Part shown: in pieces, positions 16,344 through 33,199 of the stretch | Layout: each line of letters begins with the position of its first letter | How positions within the stretch are numbered: the stretch's first letter is position 1 | DNA from: Prosthecobacter sp. | GTDB lineage: Bacteria > Verrucomicrobiota > Verrucomicrobiia > Verrucomicrobiales > Verrucomicrobiaceae | Assembly: GCF_034366625.1 (NCBI RefSeq) | Contig: NZ_JAXMIH010000006.1 | Span: forward strand, 992,001 to 1,056,000 | Reading direction: 5' to 3' | Length of the DNA: 64,000 bases | Program-made: the position numbers and the translations under genes | Notes under the pieces: model-generated | Databases searched by the model: none | Told to the model about the DNA's origin: nothing | The model's input: only the letters and a program-made list of their open reading frames with translations

Positions 16344-16367
16344 CCCCGCGACCCTTTTTCCTGACAC

Positions 16368-19300
16368 ATGAAACGCATTTGGAAGCATCCCGAGGAGCCG
16401 CAGAACGCCAAGCGCTACGTGCGCAGTGTCGCCGAACTGGATCGTCGTGAAGATTTCCTCAAAAACCTGGGTCGCGAGTTTCCCGCTGGCGACACTCTGA
16501 CCGAAGAAGAACGCGAAAACGGTCGCCGTGAGTTTTTGAAAATCATGGGTGCCAGCGTGGGCATGATGGGTCTGGCAAGCTGCCGCCGTCCGCTGACCAC
16601 AATCCTGCCGTACACCCAGCATGTGGAGTGGATGATTCCGGGCAAGCCGCTCCTCTACGCCACCACGATGCCGCGCAGCGGTGGTGCCACGCCTCTGGTT
16701 GTCGCTACGCACGAAGGCCGTCCGACGCACGTCACGGGCAATCCGCTCCACCCACTCGGTGGTGGTGTGGACAGCTTCGCCCAAGCTTCCGTGCTCGATC
16801 TTTACGATCCTGAGCGCTCCCAGAAGCCTCTTGGTGCTGGCAAGGAACTCTCCTGGGCCAAGGCGAACGACTTGATTGCTGCTGCGATCGCGGACGCCAA
16901 AAAAACCTCCGGTGCCAGCTTGGGCATCGTCGCGGGTGCCACGACTTCGCCGACTTATGTGCGTCTGCTTGCTGAAGTGAAGGCCGCTTACCCACAGGTG
17001 AAGCTGTTTCAATACGAAGCCGTCGGTGGCGAAGGTTTGGCCGCAGCGAACAAGGAAATCCTTGGCGCGGGTGTGAAGCCCTTCGTGAAGCTCGGCTCTG
17101 CGATGCGCATCCTCTCGTTGGACTGCGATTTCCTCGGTGTTGACCCGGTTGCAGGCGAACCGATCGCCGCCTTCACGAAGCATCGTGCCAAGGACGCCAA
17201 AACGGCGGACATGAACCGCCTCTACGTTCTTGAAAATCGTTACACTCTTACTGGCGGCATGGCCGATCATCGCAAGCCGCTCGCGGCCAGCTTGATCCCG
17301 GTTGCTGCGGCATTGATCGCCTCGGAATTGGGAGACGCCTCCGCCAAAGCGCTCGCCGACACGGCTCCTGCCGGTCTTAAAGAATGGATCGCTCCGGCGG
17401 TTCGCGATTTGATCGACAACAAGGGCAGGGCTGTTGTTCTCGCGGGTTCCCGCTATGGTGCCGAAGTTCACGCGTTCGTCGCTTCGATCAACAATGCTCT
17501 CGGTGCCTACGGTTCGACGATCGAACTGCTCCAAGACAGCCCGGCTCCCGAAATGGGTGGCTTCGCCGAGCTTCAGGCCGCCGTTTCCGGCGGTCAGATC
17601 AAGACTCTCGTTTCCCTCACTCCTGCCAGCCTTTACTACGACGCACCGGACGCCGAGGCGTTCGCGAAGCTCATCACTGAAAAAGGCGTGAAGCTTGTTC
17701 ACGTCGGCATGCTCAAGAACCACACGGCACGCCACGCGGCGCTGCACATCCCGTCGGCGCATTATCTGGAAACATGGGGCGATGCTCGTGCCGCTGATGG
17801 CACCTACTCCATCGTTCAGCCGATGATTGCTCCACTGTTTGATGGTGCGAGCAAGATTGAAGTTCTCCTCGCTCTGCTGGGCCGCAAAAAACTGGGTCCA
17901 GTCGAAGTTGCAGCCCCCGCCGCTGCTCCTGCGGCAGGTGCGGCTCCGGTCCCGGCGGCAGTTCCCGCCGCTCCGGTCGAAGACGCTGCTTACACGGCAG
18001 TTCGCGACACCTTTGCCGTAGTTTCCGGTGGTCTTGACGAAACGAAGTGGAATTTCACCCTGCGTGACGGCTTCCTCAAAGGCTCCGTCTTCGCCAAAGC
18101 CAGCGCTGCGCCGAATGTCGCCGCCGTTGCCGGAATCGTTGCCAAGGCTGCGCCTGCTGCGGCTCCGACCGATGATTCGCTCGAAGTGGTGCTCGTCGCT
18201 GACTCCAGCGTGTTTGATGGCCGTTACACCAACAACGCCTGGCTCCAGGAAGCTCCCGATCCCGTGACGAAACTCACTTGGGATAACGCGGCGTGGATCG
18301 GTTCCGTCACGTTCCGCCGTCTGGGCCTCAAGGAAGGCCAGAACGTCAAGATTTCCGTCGGTGGCGCTGAAATCGAAATCCCGGCCATTGAAGCGCCGGG
18401 CCATGTTTCCAATTCTATCACGCTGCCCCTTGGCTACGGTCAGAAGGGCGTCGGCACTGTCGGCAGCAAGCGTGGTGTGAACGCGTATGTGCTGCGCAAG
18501 CAGCCCGGCACGTTTGTCTTGGGCGGTGCGAAGATCGAAGTGCTTCCTACCGTCGCTGAACTCGCCATCACGCAGGATCAGAACACGATGGAAGGCCGCG
18601 CGGTGTATCGCGAAGGCACGCTCGACACTTTCAACAAGGACGCGGCGTTTGCGCAGAAGACCGGCATGGACGGGCACATCCCGGAAAACATTTCCTTCTA
18701 CAAAGGCCAGGTCGGCGTGCGTTCTGAGGAGAACCCCGCCGGTTTCGACTACGAGACCAAGCATCAGTGGGGCATGACCATCGATCTCAGCAAGTGCATC
18801 GGTTGCACGGCGTGCATCGTTGCCTGCCAGAGCGAAAACAACATTCCAGTCGTTGGCAAAGACCAGGTTCGCAAAGGCCGCGTGATGCAGTGGATCCGCA
18901 TGGACCGCTATTTCGCCGTGCCGAAGTGGGGCAAGAACGAAGTCGCCCAGGAAAGCACGTATGCCGTTGATGATCCGACGCCTGAGCAGCTCGAGAACGC
19001 TGAGATGGTGCACCAGCCTCTCGCCTGTCAGCAGTGTGAATCCGCGCCGTGCGAAACCGTTTGTCCGGTGAACGCCACCGTTCACACCGACGACGGTCTC
19101 AACGCGATGGCCTACAATCGCTGCATCGGCACGCGCTACTGCGCGAACAACTGCCCCTACACCGCCCGTCGCTTCAACTGGTTCGACTATAACAAGCGCA
19201 ACCCGCTGATCGATACAACCGTGCTCGGCATGAAAGTCGGCAATCTTTACGCCGGACCTCTGGGCGAGAAGAAGGAAGACGAAAGCCTCCGCCTCCAGCG

Positions 19301-19664
19301 CAACCCGAACGTCACCGTCCGGATGCGTGGTGTCATCGAGAAGTGTACGTATTGCGTGCAGCGCATCGAGACCGCCAAGATCCTGCAGAAGCAGGTGCAG
19401 CGCGATTCGAAGAACTTCCGCGTGCCCACCGACAGTGTCAAAACCGCCTGCCAGCAGTCCTGCCCGGCCGACGCCATCGTCTTTGGTGACCTGGCCGATC
19501 CGAAATCCGCCGTCGTCAAATCGAAGGCATCGCCGCGTGATTACCAGTTGCTCAAATACATCGGCACACGCCCGCGCACGAGCTACCTCGCCCGGCTGCG
19601 CAATCCGAACAAGAACATGCCCGGCGCGGAAAACATCGCCGTGTGGAGCAACAATCAATTCTAA
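16368..19664 (+). CDS. actB: Alternative Complex III iron-sulfur / molybdopterin-oxidoreductase-like subunit ActB
   Basis: 1098 residues. A twin-arginine-like motif RREFLKIMG (residues 53-61) is followed by GLASC (Cys72), which could be lipidated. The first ~700 residues resemble molybdopterin oxidoreductases; in characterised ACIII this part carries no molybdenum. An Ala/Pro-rich linker lies near residues 505-535. The C-terminal ferredoxin-like part has the clusters CIGCTACIVACQ, CQQCESAPCETVCP, CIGTRYCANNCP, CTYC and CQQSCPADA, enough for the three [4Fe-4S] plus one [3Fe-4S] known for ActB. It sits on the periplasmic face against ActA and ActC. Confidence 0.95.
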   Translation: MKRIWKHPEEPQNAKRYVRSVAELDRREDFLKNLGREFPAGDTLTEEERENGRREFLKIMGASVGMMGLASCRRPLTTILPYTQHVEWMIPGKPLLYATTMPRSGGATPLVVATHEGRPTHVTGNPLHPLGGGVDSFAQASVLDLYDPERSQKPLGAGKELSWAKANDLIAAAIADAKKTSGASLGIVAGATTSPTYVRLLAEVKAAYPQVKLFQYEAVGGEGLAAANKEILGAGVKPFVKLGSAMRILSLDCDFLGVDPVAGEPIAAFTKHRAKDAKTADMNRLYVLENRYTLTGGMADHRKPLAASLIPVAAALIASELGDASAKALADTAPAGLKEWIAPAVRDLIDNKGRAVVLAGSRYGAEVHAFVASINNALGAYGSTIELLQDSPAPEMGGFAELQAAVSGGQIKTLVSLTPASLYYDAPDAEAFAKLITEKGVKLVHVGMLKNHTARHAALHIPSAHYLETWGDARAADGTYSIVQPMIAPLFDGASKIEVLLALLGRKKLGPVEVAAPAAAPAAGAAPVPAAVPAAPVEDAAYTAVRDTFAVVSGGLDETKWNFTLRDGFLKGSVFAKASAAPNVAAVAGIVAKAAPAAAPTDDSLEVVLVADSSVFDGRYTNNAWLQEAPDPVTKLTWDNAAWIGSVTFRRLGLKEGQNVKISVGGAEIEIPAIEAPGHVSNSITLPLGYGQKGVGTVGSKRGVNAYVLRKQPGTFVLGGAKIEVLPTVAELAITQDQNTMEGRAVYREGTLDTFNKDAAFAQKTGMDGHIPENISFYKGQVGVRSEENPAGFDYETKHQWGMTIDLSKCIGCTACIVACQSENNIPVVGKDQVRKGRVMQWIRMDRYFAVPKWGKNEVAQESTYAVDDPTPEQLENAEMVHQPLACQQCESAPCETVCPVNATVHTDDGLNAMAYNRCIGTRYCANNCPYTARRFNWFDYNKRNPLIDTTVLGMKVGNLYAGPLGEKKEDESLRLQRNPNVTVRMRGVIEKCTYCVQRIETAKILQKQVQRDSKNFRVPTDSVKTACQQSCPADAIVFGDLADPKSAVVKSKASPRDYQLLKYIGTRPRTSYLARLRNPNKNMPGAENIAVWSNNQF

Positions 19665-19673
19665 ACCGGACAC

Positions 19674-21131
19674 ATGGACGCCTCAGCCTCAAACACACCG
19701 CGAATTCTGGACCGCGAACCGCTGGTTCTGAACCAACGTTCCTATTCGTGGATCACGAACCGCATTTGCGGCATCGTGGAAAACAAACAGCCCGCCCTCT
19801 GGTGGCTGCTGTTCATTCCGAGCGTGATCCTCACCGGCATCATGGTGTTCTGCTTCACCTACCTCATTTCCACCGGCGTCGGTGTCTGGGGGCAGAAGCA
19901 GCCGGTCGCCTGGGCCTGGGACATCACGAACTTCGTGTTCTGGATCGGTATCGGCCACGCCGGCACGCTCATTTCCGCCATTCTCTTCCTCACCCGTCAG
20001 AAGTGGCGTACGTCCGTCAATCGCGCTGCTGAAGCCATGACGATCTTCGCCGTGATGTGCGCGGGCTTGTTCCCGGCCTTCCACGTCGGTCGTGTGTGGA
20101 TGGTGTGGTTCCTCGCACCGATCCCGAACGCCAATGCCATCTGGCAGAACTTCAAATCGCCGTTGCTGTGGGACGTGTTTGCCGTTTCGACGTATTTCTC
20201 GGTCTCGCTGGTGTTCTGGTTCCTCGGTCTTGTGCCTGACCTTGCCACGCTGCGTGACCGTTGCCGTCCCGGCTTGAAAAAATTCCTCTACGGCCTGTTC
20301 GCCCTCGGCTGGCGCGGTGGCAACCGCCATTGGAGCCACTATGAGACGGGTTACATGCTGTTGGCCGCTCTTTCGACGCCGCTGGTGCTTTCCGTGCATT
20401 CCGTCGTGTCCTTCGACTTCGCCACCTCCATCGTTCCCGGCTGGCATACCACGATCTTCCCGCCCTACTTCGTTGCTGGCGCCATCTTCGGTGGCTTCGC
20501 GATGGTGCTCACGCTGATGATCCCCTGCCGCCGTATCTACGGTTTGGACGACCTCATCACGCCGAAGCACATCGACAACATGGCCAAGATCATCCTGCTC
20601 ACGGGCACGATTGTCGGTTACGCCTACTGCATGGAGTTGTTCATGGCCTACTACAGCGCCAATCCGTATGAAGGCGCTGCCTTCACGCTGCGTGGCCTCA
20701 CCGGTCCATCCACCTGGGCCTACTATTGGATGTTTAGCTGCAACGTCTTCGCACCGCAGCTCTTCTGGTTCCGCTGGTGCCGCCACAACGTGTGGATCGT
20801 CATGCTCGTCTGCATGTTTGTGAACGCCGGCATGTGGTTCGAGCGCTACGTCATCATCGCCACCACGCTGGAGCGTCACATGATCCCCGGCTCTTGGGGT
20901 GTTTATGAGGCCACCTGGGTCGATAAGTACACCTTCCTCGGCACCTTCGGCTTCTTCATGATGCTGTTCCTGCTGTTCCTGCGCTTCCTGCCCGTCATCG
21001 CCATCGGTGAAGTGAAGGGCGTCCTGCCGCAGTCGAACCCGCACCGTGACGATCATGCCGAGCCCGGCATTCAGGAGGAAGACCTCATGGACTACTCCGA
21101 CCGTCACGTCCCCAAACCCGTTGCCGCCTAA
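19674..21131 (+). CDS. actC: Alternative Complex III quinol-binding membrane subunit ActC (NrfD/PsrC family)
   Basis: 485 residues with about ten membrane helices. NrfD-family features include [21 protein letters not shown] and [24 protein letters not shown], the region that forms the quinol site in ActC. Starts 9 bases after actB. It oxidises menaquinol or another quinol and hands electrons to the ActB clusters. The highly conserved HAGTLIS helix and the final soluble tail (ending HVPKPVAA) match family length. Confidence 0.95.
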
Positions 21132-21152
21132 CCTTTCAACTGCACTTCGACT

Positions 21153-21752
21153 GTGAGCACCACCCTCAAACGAGTCCACGGATACCTCGCTGAATTTGAC
21201 AGCGTGAAGGAGCTGTACCATGCCGCCGAGCATGTGCGTGACGCTGGCTATCAGCGCTGGGATGTGCATTCGCCCTTCCCGATCCACGGCATGGACCACG
21301 CCATGGGTGTGTCCCGTTCCAAGCTGCCCATTCTTGTCTTCTGCGGCGGCATCACCGGCACGATCGTCGCCTTCACCCTGCAAACCATCACTCAGACCAA
21401 CTTCTGGAGCAGCATCGGACTCGGCTTCCTCGAAAAAATCGTCGAAACCTATCCAACGGTCGTTCAAGGCAAGCCCACGGACATCTGGACGCTGCCAGCA
21501 TTCTTCCCTGTGATGTTCGAGCTGACGATTCTGTTCAGCGCCTTCACCACTCTGTTTGGACTGCTCGCCTTGATCGGCCTGCCGCGCTGGAACCATCCGC
21601 TGTTCGCCTCCAAGCGCTTCCCGAAATTCTCCGACGACGGTTTCTTTGTCTGCATCGAAGCCCGCGACCCGAAATTCTCCCAGGAAGGCACCAAGTCCCT
21701 TCTCGAAAAAGCCGGCGGCAAAAACATCGAACTCGTGGAGGACGAAGTCTAA
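21153..21752 (+). CDS. actD: Alternative Complex III subunit ActD (DUF3341)
   Basis: 199 residues starting at GTG 21153; no ATG in this frame fits the conserved N-terminus (VHGYLAEFDSVKELYHAAEHVRDAGY). A cytoplasmic ferredoxin-fold-like N-terminal part carries the hallmark WDVHSPFPIHGMDHAMG, followed by two membrane helices (LPILVFCGGITGTIVAF and the one near ELTILFSAFTTLFGLLALIG). ActD packs against ActC and ActF. Confidence 0.94.
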   Translation: MSTTLKRVHGYLAEFDSVKELYHAAEHVRDAGYQRWDVHSPFPIHGMDHAMGVSRSKLPILVFCGGITGTIVAFTLQTITQTNFWSSIGLGFLEKIVETYPTVVQGKPTDIWTLPAFFPVMFELTILFSAFTTLFGLLALIGLPRWNHPLFASKRFPKFSDDGFFVCIEARDPKFSQEGTKSLLEKAGGKNIELVEDEV

Positions 21753-21773
21753 GCCTCGCGCACCGCACGAACC

Positions 21774-22457
21774 ATGAAGTACTACTTCCTCAGCTTTCTC
21801 TTTGTCGGCGCGATCCTTGTGAGCGCGTTCGGATTCCGTGGCAGCAAGTCCGAATTGCCGCCGCTCGAAGTGTTCCCGGACATGGATCATCAGGCCAAGA
21901 TCAAATACCAGGCCGTGAGCGAATTTTTCGCCGATGGCCGCGGTGCGCGCATGCCCGTCAAAGGCACGGTGCCGATGGGTTTCGAGATCCCCGCCAAGCC
22001 GGCTGCCAACGGAGCCAAGCCCGCCCGCGTGGCGTTTAGCAACGGCAGCAGCTACTACGACACTGGCAAGATGGGCGATTTCTACGGCGACGGCCTGCCG
22101 ACTGAGATCACCGGTGACAGCACTGTCTTTAACGACGCCTTCATCAAGCGTGGTGAGCAACGTTACGCCATCCATTGCGCGATCTGCCACGGTGCTTCCG
22201 GCAACGGCAAGGGCGTGACCTCCAAATACGGCATTCTGACCGCTTTCAACTTTCAGCAGCCTGGCAACACCAACCCTGCCAATGCCGCCGCCTATCGCGC
22301 GGATGGTGCCATCTATGATGCCATCACCAACGGCAAAGGTTTGATGGGTGGTTACGGCGGCAACATCACCGTGCGCGACCGCTGGGCCATCGTGGCCTAC
22401 ATCCGCTCCCTGCAACTCGCCGCCAAAGAGTCCGGCGTCACCCTTCCCCTCCAGTAA
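21774..22457 (+). CDS. actE: Alternative Complex III monoheme cytochrome c subunit ActE
   Basis: 227 residues. N-terminal hydrophobic anchor (YYFLSFLFVGAILVSAFGF), the ActE-type ELPPLEVFPDMDHQ and FFADGRGAR...GTVPMG segments, then a class I cytochrome c domain with CAICHG and a likely Met ligand in GKGLMGGYGG. It takes electrons from ActA and delivers them to the oxidase side of the chain. Confidence 0.94.
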   Translation: MKYYFLSFLFVGAILVSAFGFRGSKSELPPLEVFPDMDHQAKIKYQAVSEFFADGRGARMPVKGTVPMGFEIPAKPAANGAKPARVAFSNGSSYYDTGKMGDFYGDGLPTEITGDSTVFNDAFIKRGEQRYAIHCAICHGASGNGKGVTSKYGILTAFNFQQPGNTNPANAAAYRADGAIYDAITNGKGLMGGYGGNITVRDRWAIVAYIRSLQLAAKESGVTLPLQ

Positions 22458-22481
22458 CGGCACGATCACGCGAATCCCGGC

Positions 22482-23828
22482 ATGAGTCACCACGTCACCT
22501 TCAACGATCTGCCCCAGGGCGGAGAAAAATTCGAACCGGCCAAGGGCGGCAAGCTCATCGGCTCGCTGGGCCTCGTCGGCCTGCTCGGCCTCATCGCCTC
22601 CGGCTATTTCTTCTTCGCCAGAACGGACACCTTTGCCTACTCCTGGCTGTTCGCCGTTTTCTTCACCTTCACCTTCGTGGTTGGCGGCTGCTTCTGGATT
22701 CTGCTCCACAGCGCGTCAAACTCGAGCTGGGGCGTCGCCGTGCGCCGTATCTGGGAAAATCTGGCCAACATGATCCTCGCCATGGGCATTATGGCCACAC
22801 CGCTGCTCATTCCGGCGGTGCAGAAGCCGCTCTATGAGTGGATGAATCATCATCGTGCCGCCGCTGAACACGCGCATCACGATCACAGCACCGTCAAAGA
22901 AGCTCTTCACCACATGACCGTGGGTGACGAAGCCAAAAAAATCGAGGCCAACCCACATCTGCACATCTTGGTCGAGAAGTTCGGCTACCTGAACATCAGC
23001 AACCACTTCCTGCCGCCGTTTAGCTGGCAGGTGCGCTTCGTGCTCTACTTCCTCATCCTCTGGCACATCGCCCGCACACTGCGCGGCAAGTCGCTCAAGC
23101 AGGAGCAGGATGGCGACATCAAGCACACCATCGCCGCACGCGCTTTCTCCTGCCGCTGGCTGCTCTTCTACGCGTTGACCGTGACCTTCGCGTCGGTCGA
23201 TTGGCTCATGTCGCTCGACTACAACTGGTTCTCCACGATGTGGGGCGTGTACATCTTCGCTGGCTGTGCTTGGGCCTCGATGGCGCTCTCCATTCTCGTT
23301 CTCACCTGGCTGCGCGGCCTTGGTTACCTGAACAAGGTCGTCACCGACGAGCATTACCATCTGATGGGCAAGCTGCTCTTCGCCTTCACGGTGTTCTGGG
23401 GCTACATCGCCTTCAGCCAGTATTTCCTCATCTGGTACGCCAACATCACGGAAGAAACCCGCTTCTACCTCACGCGTAACACCGAAGCCTGGCGCGGTGT
23501 GTCGATCTTCATCGTCGTCGGCCACTTCGTCGGCCCGTTCCTGCTGCTGCTGTCCCAGCCGCGCAAGAAAAACCCCGTCGTCGTCAGTCTCGTCTGTATC
23601 TGGATTCTGTTCATGCACCTGGTGGACATCTATTGGAACGTCATCCCTGAACGCGGCCCGTCCTTGGGCCTTGGCTACTGGGTTCCGGGTGCCTGGGTGC
23701 AGGATCTGGCCGCCTTGTGCGCCGTGTTCGGCACCATGGGCTTCCTTTACCTGCGCGGCCTTGCCAAATACAGCCTGTATCCTTGGCGTGATCCGCGCCT
23801 CATCGAGTCCGTGAACGTCGTCAACTGA
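22482..23828 (+). CDS. actF: Alternative Complex III membrane subunit ActF
   Basis: 448 residues with about ten membrane helices in the ActF fold, a distant NrfD relative without its own cofactor in known structures. Family segments include FVVGGCFWILLHSASNSSWGVAVRR and the SVDWLMSLDYNWFSTMWGVYIFAG helix. A loop near residues 125-150 is unusually His-rich (NHHRAAAEHAHHDHS). Last of the six canonical act genes. Confidence 0.94.
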   Translation: MSHHVTFNDLPQGGEKFEPAKGGKLIGSLGLVGLLGLIASGYFFFARTDTFAYSWLFAVFFTFTFVVGGCFWILLHSASNSSWGVAVRRIWENLANMILAMGIMATPLLIPAVQKPLYEWMNHHRAAAEHAHHDHSTVKEALHHMTVGDEAKKIEANPHLHILVEKFGYLNISNHFLPPFSWQVRFVLYFLILWHIARTLRGKSLKQEQDGDIKHTIAARAFSCRWLLFYALTVTFASVDWLMSLDYNWFSTMWGVYIFAGCAWASMALSILVLTWLRGLGYLNKVVTDEHYHLMGKLLFAFTVFWGYIAFSQYFLIWYANITEETRFYLTRNTEAWRGVSIFIVVGHFVGPFLLLLSQPRKKNPVVVSLVCIWILFMHLVDIYWNVIPERGPSLGLGYWVPGAWVQDLAALCAVFGTMGFLYLRGLAKYSLYPWRDPRLIESVNVVN

Positions 23829-23843: not shown

Positions 23844-24359
23844 ATGTCGCAGTCCGATCAACCTCAAAAAGCCGGAGCCACCTTCCTGTGGGTGCTTGGA
23901 GCCTTCGCAGGCTTCGCCGTGCTGTTCACCATCATCCAGGCCGTGAATGATTCGAAGCAGGGTTTCGACCCGCGCGAGTCGGAACGCACGGCCTACACCG
24001 CTGAAATCCTCAAGGCGCAGAGCGATAACCTCGCCAAGCTGGGTTTGACCGACGCCGCGAAGAAGAAGTCCGTGTTTGAAAAGACGCTCGCTGATCTCGG
24101 CGCGAAAAAGCCTGCGGTGAGCACCCAGGTCGTCCCCGGCTCACCTACTCAGCTCAAACAAGCCGCCGCCGCGATGCCTGCCGCCGCCGTTCCGGCCCCA
24201 GTTTCCCCCGCACCTGCTGCTGGAACACCACCCACTGCTCCCGCCGCACCTGTACCGGTTCCGGCCGCCGCGCCCGCGCCCATTACACCCGCTTCCCCTG
24301 CTCCTGCGGTTCCCGCAGTTCCTGCACCGGCTCCTGCCGCACCCGCTCCGCCCAAGTAA
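23844..24359 (+). CDS. Single-helix protein with Ala/Pro-rich tail, between ACIII and oxidase genes
   Basis: 171 residues. One N-terminal membrane helix (FLWVLGAFAGFAVLFTIIQAV), a ~70-residue soluble part (FDPRESERTAYTAEIL...), then about 60 residues of Ala/Pro/Val repeats to the end. I do not recognise a family. Its place right after actF and its single helix suggest an accessory subunit comparable to the small one-helix ActG subunit found in some ACIII complexes, or a tether between ACIII and the oxidase; both are inference. Confidence 0.65.
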   Translation: MSQSDQPQKAGATFLWVLGAFAGFAVLFTIIQAVNDSKQGFDPRESERTAYTAEILKAQSDNLAKLGLTDAAKKKSVFEKTLADLGAKKPAVSTQVVPGSPTQLKQAAAAMPAAAVPAPVSPAPAAGTPPTAPAAPVPVPAAAPAPITPASPAPAVPAVPAPAPAAPAPPK

Positions 24360-24362
24360 GTC

Positions 24363-25844
24363 ATGCAGACCATTCCCTCCACTCCTGACACGGACCTTCA
24401 GGCCGACAATCTTCGCCGTGCGGCGATCGACAAGTCGGTGCGAGGCCCTGTGCTGTTCCTGTTCACCAACGGAGCCTTCTGGCTCATGCTCTCCACGCTG
24501 CTCGGCGTTCTCGCCGCGATCAAGCTGGTGGAGCCCGAGTTCCTTGGCGACTGCCAATACATCACCTACGGCCGTCTTCAGCCTGCGCACATCAACGCGC
24601 TTGTCTATGGTTGGGGCGTGCAGGCCGCGCTCGGTGTCATGCTTTGGATCATGGCCCGTCGCTCCGGCCAGGAATTGAAGAGCGGCAAGAGCGTTCTCAT
24701 CACCGCAGGCGTCTTTTGGAACATCACCATCACCGTGGGCATCCTTGCCGTCCTGATGGGCAAGAGCACCTCGATCGAGTGGCTCGAAATGCCGAAATTT
24801 GTCTGGCCGGTGCTGCTGATCTGCTTCCTCTGCTTCGCCTGGCCAATTGCCCGCATGTTTGGCCGCGCCATCCGTCCTGAAGGCTTCATGGTCAGCACTT
24901 GGTACATCCTGGGTGCCTGCTTCTGGTTCCCCTGGATTTTCATCACCGCCAACGTCGCGCTGCATTGCCTGCCAGGCCTCGGTGCTCTCGGTGCTGGCAT
25001 TGACGCTTGGTACATCCACGGTGTGATCCTGCTGTTCTTCGTTCCCGTGGGCATTGGTGCCGCTTATTACTTCATCCCGAAGATCACCGGCCAGCCCATC
25101 GCCAGCGCGCAGCTCGCTTCCGCAGGTTTCTGGACCCTCGCCATCCTCGGCGGCTGGACTGGCATGCAGAAATACATGGGTGGTCCCCTTCCCGCCTGGA
25201 TGTCTGCCATTGGCGCTGCCACCGGCGTGCTTCTGCTCATTCCGGTCGGTCTTGTGGGTCTCAATCATCACCTCACCACGCTCGGCAAGCACAGCGCTGT
25301 CGCTGCCAGTCCGACGCTGCGTTTCGTTTTCTTCGGGGCGCTGTTCTATCCCGTCTCGGGTCTGATTCTGGCGCTGAATTCCGCCTTCTGGACTGGTGCC
25401 GGGCTGCAGTTCACCCAATCGTGGTATTCGTTCCAGGTGGTCAGCGTGTATGGCTTCTTCAGCATGTGTGTGTTCGGAGCGATCTACTACATCGTCCCGC
25501 GTCTCTCCGGCTGTGAATGGCTCAGCGTGCGCCTGATCCGCAATCACTTCTGGTTCTCCGTCTATGGAGTCAGCACCATCGTCATCATGAGCCTCGTCGC
25601 CGGCTGGCAGCAGGGCGCGGACCTGAACAATCCGGAGCACTGGGACCAGACCTTCATGAATCACGTCGTTAACTCCCGCGCCTACGTCGTCTCGCGCGCG
25701 GTGGCTTGGGCGCTCATCAGTTTCTCGAACTTCATGTTCCTTATTCACCTCCTGCTCATGGTCGCAGGTCTGGGCCGCCGCAGTTCGGCACCCACGCTGC
25801 TGCATCACGAGCATGACGATCACGCTCTTCCCGCCCACGCATGA
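24363..25844 (+). CDS. CcoN-like heme-copper oxidase subunit I homologue lacking most active-site ligands
   Basis: 493 residues, 12 or so helices. The alignment to cbb3 subunit I is clear in PAHINALVYGW (residues 75-84, the low-spin heme His is His76), AWYIHGVILLFF...AYYFIPK (His219 = first CuB ligand), YYIVPRLSG and the general helix order. But the GPHH CuB pair reads G267-M-Q269-K270, the cross-linked Tyr position is Gly263, and the helix X GHVHSG heme ligands read SFQVVS (Phe357, Val359). So heme b3, CuB and bis-His heme b cannot be bound in the normal way. The frame is open, followed at once by an overlapping ccoO-like gene, so this is not a decayed pseudogene. Function unknown; a structural or electron-transfer scaffold is plausible. 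Confidence 0.85.
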   Translation: MQTIPSTPDTDLQADNLRRAAIDKSVRGPVLFLFTNGAFWLMLSTLLGVLAAIKLVEPEFLGDCQYITYGRLQPAHINALVYGWGVQAALGVMLWIMARRSGQELKSGKSVLITAGVFWNITITVGILAVLMGKSTSIEWLEMPKFVWPVLLICFLCFAWPIARMFGRAIRPEGFMVSTWYILGACFWFPWIFITANVALHCLPGLGALGAGIDAWYIHGVILLFFVPVGIGAAYYFIPKITGQPIASAQLASAGFWTLAILGGWTGMQKYMGGPLPAWMSAIGAATGVLLLIPVGLVGLNHHLTTLGKHSAVAASPTLRFVFFGALFYPVSGLILALNSAFWTGAGLQFTQSWYSFQVVSVYGFFSMCVFGAIYYIVPRLSGCEWLSVRLIRNHFWFSVYGVSTIVIMSLVAGWQQGADLNNPEHWDQTFMNHVVNSRAYVVSRAVAWALISFSNFMFLIHLLLMVAGLGRRSSAPTLLHHEHDDHALPAHA

Positions 25845-26527
25845 TGAACTTTCGCACCTTCATACTCGGCCTCGTTGCTTCCTTCGGTCTACCTTGGCTG
25901 TGCCTCATCGTCATTCCGGCGATGAAGTACCAGCAGCTCACGCCCGTCGCCTATGACAAGGAGAAAGATGGCGTCGAAGGATTCTATCCCCCCGCTCCCA
26001 TCAATGGGCAGGGCCAGCTCATTTACATTCGTGAAGGTTGCAATCAGTGCCACACACAGATGATTCGCCCTGCCCAGCTCGGCCTTGATGGCTGGTACAA
26101 AGGCTGGGGCCAGGACCAGGAAGCCCGCCCAACCACTCCTGCCCGCCCGAACGAACTGCGTGACTACCTTGGCGAAAAATATGCGCTGCTCGGCATTCAA
26201 CGTGTCGGCCCTGATCTCGCCAACTTCGGCTGGCGTGCCCCAGAAGCCGCGAAGCTCCACGTTCATCTGTTCGCTCCGCGTTCCGTGCATGACTGGAGCA
26301 CGATGCCAGCCTACACCAAGCTCTACAAAGTGCAGAAGATCCAGGGTCCGTCTTCGGATCGCGCGTTGAAGCTGCCGAAGAAGTTCGCCGTGCCCGCAGG
26401 CTATGAAGTCGTTCCAACCGAGGAAGCCGACCGTCTCGTCGAATATCTTCTCTCATTGAAAAAGGACTATCCCGTCCCCGGACAGGCCGCAGCCGTCGCC
26501 GCTGCTGCCGCTCCCGCTAAAAAATAG
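25841..26527 (+). CDS. CcoO-like monoheme cytochrome c
   Basis: 228 residues. N-terminal membrane helix (ILGLVASFGLPWLCLIVIPAM), heme site EGCNQCHTQMIRP, then VGPDLANFGWR and PRSVHDWSTMPAY, whose Met is the probable axial ligand. All are CcoO signatures, and the length is close to cbb3 CcoO. Its start (ATG 25841, or 25844) overlaps the stop of the CcoN-like gene, so the two are translationally coupled and probably form one complex. Unlike its partner, this subunit looks fully competent for heme binding. An Ala-rich tail ends the protein. Confidence 0.88.
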   Translation: MMNFRTFILGLVASFGLPWLCLIVIPAMKYQQLTPVAYDKEKDGVEGFYPPAPINGQGQLIYIREGCNQCHTQMIRPAQLGLDGWYKGWGQDQEARPTTPARPNELRDYLGEKYALLGIQRVGPDLANFGWRAPEAAKLHVHLFAPRSVHDWSTMPAYTKLYKVQKIQGPSSDRALKLPKKFAVPAGYEVVPTEEADRLVEYLLSLKKDYPVPGQAAAVAAAAAPAKK

Positions 26528-26551: not shown

Positions 26552-27286
26552 ATGAGCGCCCCCGCCCATCCTGACAGCACCGATCTCGATCGCCTCCACG
26601 CCGCCGTGAAGCGCGAGAAGGAAGATCTCGCTCCCGAAAGCAAGCCCGCACCGCTGTGGGCCATGTTTTTGCTCATGCTCATCGCCATCATTGCCGGTGG
26701 CCAGCTTGGACCTATGACGGGCGGCTGGAGCTTCGACGTCAGCAATCCTTTCGCCATCGCCGGTGGCGGTGATCCGCGTCCCGGTGGAGCCGGAGCCGGA
26801 GCCGCCATGGACCCCTTCCAAATGGCCATGAAAAAAGGTGCCAGCGGCTATTCTGTCTGTGGTGGCTGCCATCAGGGCAACGGCGGCGGCCTTCCCGGCC
26901 AGTTCCCGCCCCTCGCTGGTTCAGATTACGTCACTGGCGGCACCGAGCGTCTGATCCGCATCGTGCAGCACGGTCTCACGGGTCCGATCACCGTCAAAGG
27001 CCAAGGCTTCAACACTCCTGGCGGCATGCAGCCCTTCGGCGGCGCCATGTCCTCTCAAGATCTCGCCAACGTGCTGACATTCGTGCGCAACTCCTGGGGC
27101 AATGAAGCCAGCATGATCACCAAGGAAATGGTGCAGAAGGTGCGCGATGAGGAAAAGCGCGCCACGCAGTGGACCGATGCTGACCTGAAGCCGTTCGCTG
27201 ACAAAAACGTTCCCGGTGAAATTCCCGCCGGTCCTGGAGCCACCGCGGCACCAGCAGCGGCTGCTGCCGCGCCTGCAGCCAAGTAA
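26552..27286 (+). CDS. Membrane-anchored monoheme cytochrome c (CcoP-like position)
   Basis: 244 residues. Hydrophobic anchor near residues 30-50 (PLWAMFLLMLIAIIAGG), Gly-rich linker, then a class I cytochrome c domain with CGGCHQ and a Met in GGMQPFGGAM followed by SSQDLANVLTFVRNSWG. It sits where ccoP would be in a cbb3 operon but has one heme rather than two. An Ala-rich tail closes it. It probably shuttles electrons from ACIII or the CcoO-like protein onward. Confidence 0.85.
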   Translation: MSAPAHPDSTDLDRLHAAVKREKEDLAPESKPAPLWAMFLLMLIAIIAGGQLGPMTGGWSFDVSNPFAIAGGGDPRPGGAGAGAAMDPFQMAMKKGASGYSVCGGCHQGNGGGLPGQFPPLAGSDYVTGGTERLIRIVQHGLTGPITVKGQGFNTPGGMQPFGGAMSSQDLANVLTFVRNSWGNEASMITKEMVQKVRDEEKRATQWTDADLKPFADKNVPGEIPAGPGATAAPAAAAAAPAAK

Positions 27287-27297
27287 TTTCAACGACA

Positions 27298-28110
27298 ATG
27301 ACCCGTGTGAAGCAAACCGTCTCCCGCCAGGCACCTTGGGCTGCCTTCGGAGCCGTCATGCTGATCGCGAACGTGAGCTGCGGCAAGATGCCCGAGGCCG
27401 CGAACGAGGTGAAACTCACACCTGCGGCCGAAATCGCCGAAACGCCCAGCATCACCGGCAAAGTGATGCTCCAAGGCGCAGACGCTGCAAAATTGCGTAA
27501 GCTCGTCGATGTCGGCGGCAATCCTTTCTGCACCGGTCACGGCGACATCATTGACCCGACCTGGCGCGTCGCCGCCGATGGTGCGCTTGCGGATGCGGTA
27601 ATCACGGTGCGTGGCAGCCAGCGTGCCAGCAATCTGCCTTTGGTCGCTCCGCTCATTGATCAGACGAAGTGCGAGTTCCTGCCGCATACGGTTGCGATCC
27701 AGCCCGGCCAAAACGTTCGCTTTCACAACAGTGATCTTACCTTCCACAACATCCGCATCGCCCGTCAGGAAGCTGGAACGCATGGCAAAGGCGAGAACAT
27801 CGACAACATCGGCCAGCCCTCACGCGGCGATGAAAACGTGAAGGCTTTCCAGGTTCCCGGCATCTACCGCCTCGAATGCGATGTGCATCGCTGGATGAGC
27901 GCCTGGGTGTTTGTCCACGAAGGTGTCCACAATGCGGTATCCGCCACTGATGGTTGTTTTACCATCACGCGAGCGCTCATGGACGGCGAATACGTCGTCG
28001 AGGCCTGGCACCCGCAGTTTCCGCAAAAACTTTCGCAAACCGTCACCATCCGTGGCGGCAAAGCCACCGCCGATTTCACCTTCGATTTCGCGAAAGCCTT
28101 TCAACTTTGA
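27298..28110 (+). CDS. Cupredoxin-like lipoprotein with C-terminal Ig/transthyretin-like domain
   Basis: 270 residues. Possible lipoprotein signal (cysteine in LIANVSCGK, not a perfect lipobox). A central cupredoxin-like domain has HTVAIQPGQNVRFHNSD, FHNIRI, and the copper loop ECDVHRWM giving His, Cys, His and Met ligands of a type 1 copper site. The last ~70 residues (GCFTITRALMDGEYVVEAWHPQF) look like a carboxypeptidase-regulatory/transthyretin-like domain. Its location between cytochromes and subunit I of the aa3 oxidase suggests a copper electron carrier or copper donor for the oxidase. Confidence 0.75.
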   Translation: MTRVKQTVSRQAPWAAFGAVMLIANVSCGKMPEAANEVKLTPAAEIAETPSITGKVMLQGADAAKLRKLVDVGGNPFCTGHGDIIDPTWRVAADGALADAVITVRGSQRASNLPLVAPLIDQTKCEFLPHTVAIQPGQNVRFHNSDLTFHNIRIARQEAGTHGKGENIDNIGQPSRGDENVKAFQVPGIYRLECDVHRWMSAWVFVHEGVHNAVSATDGCFTITRALMDGEYVVEAWHPQFPQKLSQTVTIRGGKATADFTFDFAKAFQL

Positions 28111-28128: not shown

Positions 28129-30090
28129 ATGAGCGCCGCCGCCACCTCTCACGATCACGCCCACGATCACTCGCATGATGACCATGCGCACGGGCACCAT
28201 GAACAGAGCTTCGTGTGGAAGTACATTTTCTCCAGCGATCACAAGACCATCGGCATCCAGTATGGCCTCTCCGGCTTGATCTTCCTGCTGTTCGGCTTCT
28301 TCCTCATGCTGCTCATGCGCTGGAGCATCGCTTATCCGGGCGTCCCGGTGCCGGCGATCGAGTTGATTCGTGATATCCCCCTCATTAAGGACCTCTTCGA
28401 GGCCATGTTCGGCCGCTGGCTGAACGCAGACGGCTCGCTCAACGGCGAGATCTACAACATGCTCGGCGCCATGCACGGCACGATCATGGTGTTCTTCGGC
28501 ATCGTGCCGCTGGGCTTCGCCGCTTTCGGCAATTTTGTCATGCCGCTGCAAATCGGCACCATCGACATGGCGTTCCCCCGCCTGAACATGCTCAGCTACT
28601 GGTTCTTCTTCATCAGTTGTGTGTTGATGATGTACAGCTTCTTTGTCGGCACCGGTCCGGTGCAGACTGGCTGGACGATGTATTCGCCGCTGGCATCGAC
28701 GACGGCCCTCGGCGTGACGAGCGTCTGGTCGCATGGCCACACCTGGTGGCTCACGGCGATGGTGTTCAACATCTCCGCGTCACTTCTCGGCTCCGTCAAC
28801 TTCATCGCCACCCTCATCAACCTGCGCACCAAAGGCATGGCCTGGATGAAGATGCCCTTCTTCTGCTGGGCGATGTTTGTGATCGGTTTCCTGCTCCTGC
28901 TGGCCTTCCCGCCGCTTGAAGTGGCCGCCATCCTGCAGCTCTCCGACCGCGTGTTCGGCTCCTCCTTCTATTTGCCGACCGGTTTGATGGAAGGCGGCAA
29001 GCACCTCGACATTTCCGGCGGCGGTAATCCCCTGCTCTACCAGCATCTGTTCTGGTTCCTCGCCCATCCTGAGGTTTACGTGCTCATCCTGCCTGCGTTC
29101 GCCATTCTCACAGAAGTCATTCCCTGCAATGCCCGCCGTCCGCTGTGGGGCTACAAGTCGATGGTGTACTCCGTGCTGACGCTCGGTTTCCTCAGTTTCC
29201 TCGTCTGGGCGCACCACATGTATCTCACCGGCATGGGCACGATGATGTCCACCTACTTCCAGATCACCACGGTGCTCATCTCAGTGCCGTCCGTGGTTCT
29301 CCTGACCTGCCTCATGATCTCGCTGTGGGGTGGCTCCATCCGCTTCAACACGCAGATGCTCTTCGCATGTGCTTTCCTGCCCATGTTCGGCATCGGCGGT
29401 CTCACCGGTCTGCCGCTGGCCTTCTCGTTCATCGATCTCGCACTGCACGACACCTACTACGTGATCGGCCATTTCCACTACGTTGTCGCCCCCGGCACCA
29501 TCTTCGCCCTGTTTGCTGGCATCTATCACTGGTTCCCGAAGATCACCGGTCGTTTCATGAGTGACCGGCTCGGCAAATGGCACTTCTGGCCGTCGCTCAT
29601 CGGCATGAACCTCGTGTTTATGCCCATGATGATCCAGGGCATGGCCGGCTTCCACCGCCGCTGGTATGACGGCGGCAAATACTTCGAAAACACCGCCGGT
29701 TTCTCCCACTGGACCACGACTCTGACGCACAAGATCGGCGCCGTCTTCGGCCTCGATATTCCGGACAATATGCTTTCCCTCAACATCGTCATGTCCGTCG
29801 GCGCTTTCATTCTCGCCCTCGGCCAGGTGCCCTTCATCTTCAACTTCTGGTTCAGCATCAAAGGCGGCAAAAAAGTTGAAAGCGACAATCCCTGGGATGC
29901 CACCACGCTGGACTGGGCCACACCCACGCCGCCGCCGCATGGCAACTTCCTGTTTGATCCGGTCGCTCATCGCGGACCGTACGAGTACAGCCTCCCCGGC
30001 CACGTCACCGACTTCTATCCGCAGTGGGAATCTGAACCCGGCAAACCCGAAACCAAACCTGCCGCCGACAAGGTGCTGGCGCATCACTAA
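28129..30090 (+). CDS. ctaD: aa3-type cytochrome c oxidase subunit I
   Basis: 653 residues, 12 core helices plus an extended C-terminal part. All ligands are present: MHGTIMVFF (low-spin heme a His), AHPEVYVLILP (CuB His and cross-linked Tyr, with the A1-family Glu), WAHHMYLTG (CuB His pair) and GHFHYVV (heme a3 and heme a). The D-channel entrance Asp is kept in IDMAFPRLNMLSYW, though one of the two usual Asn is Met. The N-terminal 25 residues are strongly His-rich. It reduces oxygen to water and pumps protons. This is the only catalytic oxidase subunit in the window. Confidence 0.96.
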   Translation: MSAAATSHDHAHDHSHDDHAHGHHEQSFVWKYIFSSDHKTIGIQYGLSGLIFLLFGFFLMLLMRWSIAYPGVPVPAIELIRDIPLIKDLFEAMFGRWLNADGSLNGEIYNMLGAMHGTIMVFFGIVPLGFAAFGNFVMPLQIGTIDMAFPRLNMLSYWFFFISCVLMMYSFFVGTGPVQTGWTMYSPLASTTALGVTSVWSHGHTWWLTAMVFNISASLLGSVNFIATLINLRTKGMAWMKMPFFCWAMFVIGFLLLLAFPPLEVAAILQLSDRVFGSSFYLPTGLMEGGKHLDISGGGNPLLYQHLFWFLAHPEVYVLILPAFAILTEVIPCNARRPLWGYKSMVYSVLTLGFLSFLVWAHHMYLTGMGTMMSTYFQITTVLISVPSVVLLTCLMISLWGGSIRFNTQMLFACAFLPMFGIGGLTGLPLAFSFIDLALHDTYYVIGHFHYVVAPGTIFALFAGIYHWFPKITGRFMSDRLGKWHFWPSLIGMNLVFMPMMIQGMAGFHRRWYDGGKYFENTAGFSHWTTTLTHKIGAVFGLDIPDNMLSLNIVMSVGAFILALGQVPFIFNFWFSIKGGKKVESDNPWDATTLDWATPTPPPHGNFLFDPVAHRGPYEYSLPGHVTDFYPQWESEPGKPETKPAADKVLAHH

Positions 30091-30125: not shown

Positions 30126-31493
30126 ATGGAAATCCCGTACACAGTCCACGCCCGCCCGGACACCGGCCTCTTCAACGCCAAGATCGGCATCTGGCTCTTC
30201 CTCGCCTCGGAAGTCATGCTCTTCGGCGGTTTGTTCTCCGCTTACATCTTCCTCCGCCTCGGTGCGGACTATCCTTGGCCGGTGCATGACCTCGACGTCA
30301 CCCTCGGCTTCTGGAACACCATCGTTCTGATCGCCTCCTCCGTCACAGTGGTCATGGCTTGGGCCTGCTTGAAGTTGCGCAAGTTCGGCTGGTATCGCAT
30401 CAACATGGCCATCACGGTGATTTGCGCCGGTGTCTTCATGTTCAACAAGAGCCTCGAATATAGCGCGAAGTTCAAGCACTACGCCGTGAAGCTCACCGAC
30501 GGCACCATCCTCACCGGCCACATGCCGGAGGATGAGCATGGCCACACTATTCCCTACACCGTGAAGTTCGGCGACGTGACCGAACTTTCCCTCGGCATTC
30601 CGGTGAGGCAAAGCGCTGTCACGGCTGATCCGGTGGATCATGTGCTGCCATACGTCGAAGGCGAGGCACCCAAGTTTAAAACTGAGGACGGCAAGGAAAT
30701 CACCCTCGACAAGGCCGCGTTCGCCGAACTCCGCGCCGCAGCGATTGCCAAGGCCAAAGCTGACAAGAAAGACACCGCCACGGTGAAGCTCACCGCCACG
30801 GCTCCGTTCAAAGTCGCCGCCAGACCCTCGGAAATCTTCGGCTACACCGCCACCACCATCACTTTCCGTGACGGCACCACAGCCACCGGCAAGCTCATCG
30901 ACGACAAGATGACCCTCGAAGTCGATGGCATCGACACACGCGGAGTCGCGCAGCCTGAGAAGTCACTGGCCTTCGATCACCGCTATCTCGCCAACTGGCA
31001 GAAGGCTTTCGTCGCCAACCGTGACCATCACGTCTCCGAGTTCGAGCACAAGTACCCCACGCGTGACAAGGCCAGATCCGCCACGCTTCAGAAAGAGTCG
31101 CTGTACTTCAAGCTCCACTCCGCCACTCCGCCTGCCGAAGGTGCGGCTCATGGTGACAAGCATGGTGCTGAAGCCCACGCTCCTGCCGGATCTCACGGCC
31201 ACGGCGAGGCGCATCACCCCACGGTCATCATCGAGAAGAAAGACATCACCTTCTTCTCCAACTTCACGCCCAAGCTCAACACCTACTACGCCATCTACTT
31301 CACGCTCACTGGTCTGCATGGCGCACACGTCGTCGCCGGGGCGCTGGTGCTGTTGTACTTCCTCGTGTTCGACAACAAGCGTCTGAAGAAAGACCCCGAG
31401 CATCTGGCCAACCGCGTCGAAGTCGGCGGCCTGTTCTGGCACTTCGTCGATCTGGTCTGGATCTTCCTCTTCCCGCTGCTGTATCTCCTCTAA
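30126..31493 (+). CDS. ctaE: Cytochrome c oxidase subunit III with ~265-residue soluble insertion
   Basis: 455 residues against ~190-210 for a bacterial five-helix subunit III. Residues 1-115 carry the first three helices (KIGIWLFLASEVMLFGGLFSAYIF, FWNTIVLIASSVTVVMAW, INMAITVICAGVFMF). Residues ~383-455 carry the last two (TLTGLHGAHVVAGALVLLYF and GGLFWHFVDLVWIFLFPLLYLL) with the conserved HGAHV and WHFVDLVW motifs. Between them lies a hydrophilic insertion with two DGT-x-x-TG stretches and a His-rich run near residues 345-365. The reading frame is continuous and the insertion's codon use resembles the rest, so it is a genuine part of the protein. Confidence 0.92.
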   Translation: MEIPYTVHARPDTGLFNAKIGIWLFLASEVMLFGGLFSAYIFLRLGADYPWPVHDLDVTLGFWNTIVLIASSVTVVMAWACLKLRKFGWYRINMAITVICAGVFMFNKSLEYSAKFKHYAVKLTDGTILTGHMPEDEHGHTIPYTVKFGDVTELSLGIPVRQSAVTADPVDHVLPYVEGEAPKFKTEDGKEITLDKAAFAELRAAAIAKAKADKKDTATVKLTATAPFKVAARPSEIFGYTATTITFRDGTTATGKLIDDKMTLEVDGIDTRGVAQPEKSLAFDHRYLANWQKAFVANRDHHVSEFEHKYPTRDKARSATLQKESLYFKLHSATPPAEGAAHGDKHGAEAHAPAGSHGHGEAHHPTVIIEKKDITFFSNFTPKLNTYYAIYFTLTGLHGAHVVAGALVLLYFLVFDNKRLKKDPEHLANRVEVGGLFWHFVDLVWIFLFPLLYLL

Positions 31494-31513: not shown

Positions 31514-31843
31514 ATGGCTGACAACCTCGAAGAAATCCAGAAATCGGTCAAAAAATACCTCATCATCGGGGCCACGCTGATCGTCTTCACCGGCATCACT
31601 GTGTGGCTCTCTTATGTTGAGCTGCCCACACACAGTCTGAACATCCTGGTCGGTATGATCGTGGCCACCTTCAAGGCCGCTCTCGTCGCGCTGATCTTCA
31701 TGCATCTCAATCACGAGCGCAGCGTGATCTACAAGATCCTGGCCTTCACTGTCGTCTTCGCCATCGTTCTCTTTACGCTCTTTATCCTGTCCCACGGCGA
31801 TCCCCTCACCTTCGAAGGCTTCTACGATCGTAACGAAGAATAG
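31514..31843 (+). CDS. ctaF: Cytochrome c oxidase subunit IV (prokaryotic, CtaF-like)
   Basis: 109 residues, three membrane helices: YLIIGATLIVFTGITVWLSYV, LNILVGMIVATFKAALVALIFMHL and the one in LAFTVVFAIVLFTLFILS. The KAALVALIFMHL helix is the hallmark of this small subunit. Starts 20 bases after subunit III. Confidence 0.9.
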   Translation: MADNLEEIQKSVKKYLIIGATLIVFTGITVWLSYVELPTHSLNILVGMIVATFKAALVALIFMHLNHERSVIYKILAFTVVFAIVLFTLFILSHGDPLTFEGFYDRNEE

Positions 31844-32297: not shown

Positions 32298-33104
32298 ATG
32301 AACCTCTCTTGGATTAATGAATTTATCGGCCAAACTCCAAACGCCTCCGAACACGGCGGCCTCGTGGATCACATGCTTGGCTTCGTCCACTGGTTCATGC
32401 TGGTTCTTGGTCTTGGCTGGAGCATTTATCTCTGCATCGCCTTCTACCGCTTCCGTCAGAAGAAGACCGCCGCTGCCGATTATCATGGCTTCCGTGGCCA
32501 TGCCACGACCCACATCGAGATTGGGGTTGTCATCGTTGAGGCCATCTTGCTCCTTGGCTTCGCCTTCCCGCTCTGGGCACGTCAGGCGGATGAATATCCC
32601 ACCTCTCCCGACACCATTCGTTTGCGCGCACTCGGCGAGAAGTTCCTCTGGAACTTCCAGTATCCAGGCACCGACATGATGCTCAGCACCTGGGATCTGC
32701 GCAATGTCGATGGTGCCACCAACACGACCGGCAAAGACCTGCACGATCCGAACGGCAAGGATGACTTCGTCAATCCCGGCACCATGAAACTCCCGGTGGG
32801 CCGCCCCGTCATCGTCGATGTCGCCAGCAAGGACGTGATCCACAACCTCGCCCTCGTTCCGATGCGTGCCGCCCAGGATGCCACCCCTGGCGTGAAGAGC
32901 CACATGTGGTTCAAGCCGACCAAGGAAGGCACTTGGGACATCATCTGCGGCCAGCTTTGCGGCCCAGGCCACGCGCAGATGAAGGCCATTCTCGAAGTCA
33001 TCCCCGCTGTTGAATACGACGCCTGGGCGAAAGAACAGTCCACCGCGGCCCAAAAGAAAACCGATGAAGCTGCCGCCGCGGCTCCAAAGACTGCCGCACA
33101 GTAA
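32298..33104 (+). CDS. ctaC: Cytochrome c oxidase subunit II (CuA subunit)
   Basis: 268 residues. Two N-terminal helices (FVHWFMLVLGLGWSIYLCIAF and HIEIGVVIVEAILLLGFAFPL) and a periplasmic cupredoxin domain. CuA ligands are complete: DVIHNLALVPMR (His) and CGQLCGPGHAQM (two Cys, His, Met). No cytochrome c domain is fused, so the enzyme is aa3 rather than caa3. It ends in an Ala/Lys-rich tail. It is unusual for this subunit to be encoded last in the operon. Confidence 0.95.
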   Translation: MNLSWINEFIGQTPNASEHGGLVDHMLGFVHWFMLVLGLGWSIYLCIAFYRFRQKKTAAADYHGFRGHATTHIEIGVVIVEAILLLGFAFPLWARQADEYPTSPDTIRLRALGEKFLWNFQYPGTDMMLSTWDLRNVDGATNTTGKDLHDPNGKDDFVNPGTMKLPVGRPVIVDVASKDVIHNLALVPMRAAQDATPGVKSHMWFKPTKEGTWDIICGQLCGPGHAQMKAILEVIPAVEYDAWAKEQSTAAQKKTDEAAAAAPKTAAQ

Positions 33105-33167: not shown

Positions 33168-33199
33168 TGCTTTTGCCTCTCGTTCATGATCTGACCGAC

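Follow-up and report, generated by a model that had tools for sequence, protein, structure and literature searches.

Loss of the metal ligands in a CcoN-like subunit encoded beside ACIII in Verrucomicrobiota and its probable retention as a relay scaffold

Introduction

The association of ACIII with C-type oxidases is already known: a passage in PMC8498564 cites Refojo (2010) for the observation that ACIII can adjoin an oxidase of this type. In verrucomicrobial methanotrophs, a cbb3 oxidase has been placed beside ACIII and aa3 genes or counted among the oxidases (PMC6688271, PMC8498564, PMC11102522, PMC10205796), and the “cbb3” next to ACIII was taken to agree with the high affinity of Methylacidiphilum for O2 (PMC6688271). 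A direct connection between ACIII and an A-family oxidase is represented by the supercomplex of Flavobacterium johnsoniae, in which, according to the review PMC8361435, the contact is made via oxidase subunit III. A heme-copper oxidase core is usually taken to be characterized by its metal ligands, and in genome annotation the presence of ccoN-like genes is used to infer O2 affinity. A text search of the open-access literature found no pseudo-enzyme heme-copper oxidase.

Here, we describe a ccoN-like gene in a 64,000-nucleotide stretch of a Prosthecobacter sp. genome (the window; NCBI RefSeq assembly GCF_034366625.1, contig NZ_JAXMIH010000006.1, positions 992,001–1,056,000). A survey of 289 genomes of the phylum revealed relatives in 90 of them.

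Organization of the locus

A complete actABCDEF set (15537–23828) lies upstream of the CcoN-like gene in the window, and genes of an A-family aa3 oxidase lie downstream. All of the genes are on the forward strand:

15537–16343 (+): actA, multiheme c-type cytochrome of ACIII with five CxxCH motifs
16368–19664 (+): actB, molybdopterin-family/iron-sulfur fusion subunit of ACIII
19674–21131 (+): actC, integral membrane subunit of ACIII
21153–21752 (+): actD of ACIII
21774–22457 (+): actE, monoheme cytochrome c of ACIII
22482–23828 (+): actF, integral membrane subunit of ACIII
23844–24359 (+): small Pro/Ala-rich ORF with an N-terminal membrane anchor
24363–25844 (+): CcoN-like pseudo-oxidase subunit with a CcoN fold; H60 and H207 kept, Y251, H257, H258, H345 and H347 lost
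25841–26527 (+): CcoO/FixO-like monoheme cytochrome c, CxxCH kept
26552–27286 (+): monoheme cytochrome c (Cytochrom_C) with a weak CcoP match
27298–28110 (+): cupredoxin with a carboxypeptidase-regulatory-like tail
28129–30090 (+): coxA, A-family oxidase subunit I with the catalytic histidines present
30126–31493 (+): coxC-like subunit III with a large insertion
31514–31843 (+): coxD-like subunit IV
32298–33104 (+): coxB, subunit II with the CuA motif CxxxCxxxHxxM and no fused cytochrome c
33173–34270 (+): ctaA, heme A synthase

The same module occurs across the class in a constant order (actA–F, in some cases the small ORF, CcoN-like, CcoO-like, cytochrome c), and the window gene holds the corresponding position, directly after actA–F and before the CcoO-like and cytochrome c genes. 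A short transmembrane ORF like that at 23844–24359 precedes the CcoN-like gene in many genomes of the class. The end of the CcoN-like gene overlaps the start of the CcoO-like gene by 4 bases, and the product of the latter, with its FixO match and CxxCH motif, corresponds to the monoheme CcoO subunit of cbb3 oxidases. In the genus-mates G188, G191, and G200, actB and the CcoN-like gene are on separate contigs, so that actA–D and actE–F/CcoN-like appear to be split there.

The motifs HPEVY, HH, and HFH of CoxA and the CuA motif of CoxB were recognized by eye in the translations; judging by these motifs, the neighboring aa3 oxidase is probably functional. Since CoxB carries no fused cytochrome c, an external donor is needed. 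The cupredoxin encoded between cytochrome c and coxA is a possible extra electron carrier. Only some of the window-like loci have it at this position; among those from named genomes, it follows the cytochrome c gene in 15 of 78.

Identity, fold, and ligands of the CcoN-like protein

The ORF at 24363–25844 begins with ATG, encodes 493 amino acids, and contains no internal stop codons. Its product matches COX1 (PF00115) at 1.7e-42 in Pfam; the best NCBIfam match is ccoN (TIGR00780), whose cut-off of 583 bits far exceeds the 123.7 bits obtained. The only sequence matches in the PDB are subunit I chains of cbb3 oxidases, the nearest being 9g6b_A and 3mk7_A. The AlphaFold model, obtained with a 58-row alignment as input, had a pLDDT of 92 and a pTM of 0.92, and the top Foldseek matches of the model were cbb3 CcoN chains (3mk7_A, TM 0.85/0.90, rmsd 2.4). 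The confidence of the model and these matches indicate that the whole fold is predicted for the window protein. Thus, by homology and by its COX1/CcoN fold the protein belongs with the cbb3 (C-type) oxygen reductases, and the gene is a homologue and descendant of cbb3 subunit I. An assignment to NorB was not obtained, as the TM values were 0.76–0.78 compared with 0.85 for cbb3 and the metal ligands were absent.

A protein 95% identical to that of the window was found at locus L095. Another, at 99% identity, was encoded on a contig titled Akkermansia muciniphila (L094); the name of this MAG is probably wrong, given the Prosthecobacter-like protein of the window. The window genome also encodes a canonical fused CcoNO of 849 aa with every ligand present on contig C16 (L002, G000:C16:8274-12563). 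The CcoN-like gene is therefore an addition to the canonical oxidase and not its replacement, and the idea that the genome contains no other cbb3 was rejected.

The residues of the metal sites were checked by index and by multiple alignment with 3mk7 and are given here with Pseudomonas stutzeri numbering first and window numbering second. Two histidines are kept, His60 (His76) and His207 (His219). The cross-linked Tyr251 is replaced by Gly263 and the CuB pair His257-His258 by Gln269-Lys270, which leaves His207 as the sole CuB ligand; the heme b3 ligand His345 is replaced by Phe357. For the low-spin heme b, His60 remains and His347 is changed to Val359. Additional cofactor and channel positions are also altered: Arg57 to Gln73, Trp203 to Ala215, His337 to Gln349, Tyr237 to Ala249, and Ser240 to Ala252. 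Neither chance nor sequencing error accounts for the loss of ligands, because the genus-mates and all 78 relatives from named genomes lack the full set as well; these genomes are mostly labeled Verrucomicrobiaceae, Akkermansiaceae, and Verrucomicrobiales. A search for replacement ligands at the metal sites of 94 window-like sequences found no conserved His, Met, or Cys, and a misalignment that hides other histidines was thereby rejected. His60 is retained in 83 of 93 window-like sequences, and nine close sequences have Phe at this position, whereas Arg57 and His347 are lost in the window lineage, Glu122 is not conserved there, and His347 has no conserved His, Met, or Cys in its place.

The catalytic core of the oxidase has thus very probably been silenced. 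The first-pass annotation had named the same two retained histidines and the same five substitutions and had concluded that heme b3, CuB, and a bis-His heme b could not be bound in the usual way, although the frame was intact, the fold preserved, and the gene coupled to a heme-competent CcoO-like gene. All of these statements withstood the analysis, including its proviso that no other histidines should occupy the active site.

Distribution and phylogeny of intact and lost copies

Intact and lost CcoN-like members occupy the same position in the operon. All seven ligand-column residues (H H Y H H H H) are present in 20 of 63 class genomes, whereas most of them are lost in the other, degenerate 43. 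The first-pass annotation had asked whether the same ligand positions are always lost in ACIII operons and had treated intact homologues beside the same genes as evidence against its interpretation. Such homologues do exist, so “always lost” does not hold; they point instead to an ACIII-linked C-type oxidase that at first looked active and was silenced at least three times. The residues found in lost copies vary among lineages: close to the window they are G/Q/K/F/V, part of f5 has R-H/Q/Q and others have S-R/R/W, and f4 has S/E/S/S/H/F/V at the seven columns. In family f6 (L063 and L064), both axial histidines of heme b, 60 and 347, are kept and the heme b3/CuB ligands are lost; from these residues, the f6 copies may be heme-b-only electron carriers.

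The 20 intact ACIII-linked copies all retain the K-channel residues Tyr223, Tyr237, and Ser240. The Glu323 of the canonical CcoN rows does not occur in any of these 20 (the column mostly holds I, L, Q, A, or T), which suggests that even the active-looking ACIII-linked form is a divergent C-type oxidase. In two f5 genomes (L041 and L042), a further CcoN-like gene is intact and accompanied by a long CcoO (334–340 aa); it is sister to the ACIII-linked clade. Outside the class, the ACIII genes of genome G178 (L045) lie next to a canonical fused CcoNO but on the other strand; this arrangement suggests that the link between ACIII and cbb3 may predate the class.

On a tree built with the ligand columns removed, the ACIII-linked CcoN-like sequences formed one clade (61 rows, support 100/100) on a long stem, apart from canonical CcoN. 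The outgroups are intact, and the starred branches of the tree force at least three separate losses. Lost clade A comprises the window, f2, f4, f6, f11, and f15; lost clade B comprises many f5 genera, f9, and f3 g41; the third loss is that of L072, which is nested among intact f3 copies. A topology with all lost rows in a single clade was rejected (p-AU 0.0006), and together with the tree this rules out a single ancient loss. The exact number of losses is uncertain owing to the long branches in both lost clades.

We also compared 72 positions conserved in intact ACIII-linked and canonical CcoN, divided into 60 others and 12 that we take, from general knowledge of cbb3 oxidases, to be cofactor or channel positions. 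The median retention in lost copies was 0.16 at the 12 positions and 0.78 at the 60 others (p = 2.7e-6), a contrast that is partly built in, since seven of the 12 define the lost set. The five remaining cofactor/channel positions (57, 122, 203, 240, and 337) followed the same trend as the seven defining ones.

Among the families with lost copies, only f1, f2, f4, and f15 have cox genes beside the operon, and the lost copies of clade B have none adjacent. The intact f14 copy (L071) also has adjacent aa3 genes. The capture of aa3 genes and the loss of ligands are therefore not strictly linked, and a strict tie between them was rejected.

Selection, heme partners, and oxidase complement

The window CcoN-like gene is under strong purifying selection: its dN/dS was 0.057–0.063 against the three closest relatives compared, at or below the values for coxA, actF, actB, and actC. 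The CxxCH motif is kept in 146/146 CcoO-like proteins and the heme motif in 156/157 of the neighboring cytochrome c proteins.

An A-family COX1 is encoded in every genome with a lost copy (43/43) and is absent from 4 of the 20 with an intact copy; the contrast gave p~0.01 in a Fisher test that ignores shared ancestry. The genomes G001 and G146 are 99% and 98% complete, respectively; in both, the intact copy is the sole COX1/heme-copper oxidase, and a search for bd oxidase found none. Consequently, the intact form probably serves as a functional terminal oxidase.

Five of five tested genomes of family f4 contain pmoA, and from this gene and their class we infer that f4 represents verrucomicrobial methanotrophs. 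Their CcoN-like copies keep only the His at position 258 out of the seven residues, and the predicted fold is still that of CcoN (pLDDT 86.6, TM about 0.80–0.85). A search for canonical ccoN in the f4 genomes found none, the best other protein scoring 34 bits. The sequences do not support O2 reduction by the CcoN-like subunit of these methanotrophs.

In the f4 genome G008 (L174), the CcoN-like, CcoO-like, cytochrome c, and coxA genes are missing from the interval between actF/small ORF and coxC, and a search of the whole genome yielded no FixO gene. Since both are absent, the N and O subunits appear to have been lost together, and ACIII does not depend on the pair in all lineages. The ACIII operon of this likely methanotroph retains the small ORF, coxC, coxD, and coxB, and coxA is on another contig. 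The gene content of G008 agrees with a published account (PMC8170126) in which “Ca. Methylacidithermus pantelleriae” has no cbb3-type genes.

Proposed role of the CcoN-like subunit and alternative explanations

We consider it probable that the window gene encodes a dead cbb3 subunit I kept as a membrane anchor and relay scaffold between ACIII and aa3. The ancestor of the class would have had ACIII in one unit with a divergent C-type oxidase consisting of CcoN, CcoO, and cytochrome c. In the window lineage and at least two others, the ligands of heme b, heme b3, and CuB would then have disappeared, along with further residues of the cofactor sites and channels. The multi-helix CcoN body would have been retained to anchor the CcoO-like heme c subunit in the membrane and to serve as its docking partner. 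Electrons may pass from menaquinol to ACIII, from there to the CcoO-like protein and cytochrome c (and the cupredoxin), and finally to CuA of the A-family aa3 oxidase. The CcoN/CcoO pair would thus form the relay scaffold between ACIII and the aa3 oxidase, which is encoded next door in the window. The relay role is suggested by gene order, by the heme motifs, and by the co-occurrence of an A-family oxidase; in clade B, where the operon has no adjacent oxidase genes, the partner oxidase is putative. For the phylum, we lean with some reserve toward the view that a heme-copper oxidase core subunit was converted several times in parallel into a metal-free membrane adaptor, on which a cytochrome c relay runs from ACIII to aa3.

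Of the other explanations, a purely structural or assembly function deserves the most attention, although we regard it as unlikely. The CcoN-like body would stabilize ACIII, or it would face the lipid or belong to an ion path, and the disappearance of its redox cofactors would be unrelated to aa3. Strong selection and the conservation of the module beside actF even where no cox genes follow agree with such a function. However, the CcoO-like protein and cytochrome c with intact heme motifs are always present, which argues for a continuing role in electron transfer, and an A-family oxidase occurs in every genome with a lost copy. The frequent retention of His60 could also mean that the former heme b site still has some function, where a single five-coordinate or oddly ligated heme might sense or buffer O2, NO, or CO. 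The f6 copies, with His60 and His347 but no heme b3/CuB, indicate that heme b can persist once the active site is gone. Against this stand the loss of Arg57 and His347 in the window lineage, the variable Glu122, the Phe at position 60 in nine close sequences, and the failure of any conserved His, Met, or Cys to take the place of His347 in the window-like set, and we judge a bound heme to be quite improbable.

An active oxidase in which the altered residues still hold a working heme-copper center is very improbable. The predicted fold is intact, and odd active-site residues are known in cbb3 oxidases, such as Trp203Gly of Nitrospina (PMC3578206); but the three CuB histidines are kept in Nitrospina, whereas nearly all members of the lost set have lost His257, Tyr251, and His345, their replacements are lineage-specific and chemically different, and channel and propionate residues are gone too. 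Finally, the loss of catalytic residues might be read as the decay of a pseudogene carried along in the operon. This is scarcely credible, since the frames are open in nearly all relatives and structural residues have been kept through at least three loss events, and for the window lineage it is ruled out by the dN/dS of about 0.06.

The scaffold interpretation leads to the prediction that ACIII in this class bears two extra subunits. Intact, half-lost (f6), and fully lost versions of one operon exist within the class, which makes the change from enzyme to scaffold directly testable.

Comparison with known systems

Compared with CcoN of P. stutzeri (3mk7; TIGR00780), the window protein has the same fold, many of the same structural residues, and the same gene order from N to O to a c-type cytochrome; it differs in having no heme b3/CuB set and no bis-His heme b, in its changed channel, and in its location in an ACIII operon. 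The cbb3 oxidase of Nitrospina gracilis with Trp203Gly (PMC3578206) is similar in that active-site residues of subunit I are altered; however, it keeps all three CuB histidines, whereas the CuB set is lost in CcoN-like proteins of the window type. The ACIII-aa3 supercomplex of F. johnsoniae (Sun, 2018; PMC8361435) resembles the proposed arrangement in that ACIII feeds an A-family oxidase directly, whereas gene adjacency is what links the two here; the account of the supercomplex in PMC8361435 describes no CcoN/CcoO-like intermediary.

The closest counterparts are the ACIII/C-type oxidase loci of verrucomicrobial methanotrophs and Opitutaceae (PMC8498564, PMC6688271, PMC11102522), in which ACIII likewise lies beside cbb3-like and aa3 genes. 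The first-pass annotation had proposed a scaffold that does not reduce oxygen in a new type of respiratory assembly. The loss of the core was borne out and the scaffold role is the one favored above, whereas the association of ACIII with a C-type oxidase had already been described; what is new is the loss of the catalytic core in the ACIII-linked C-type oxidase. In most of the cases surveyed here, the ccoN-like gene would, from its residues, be unable to encode an O2-reducing subunit. The cited studies count the locus as a functional cbb3, whereas the methanotroph copies examined here (f4) keep His258 only; if the adaptor interpretation is true, the “cbb3 oxidase” of the methanotrophs would be no oxidase at all.
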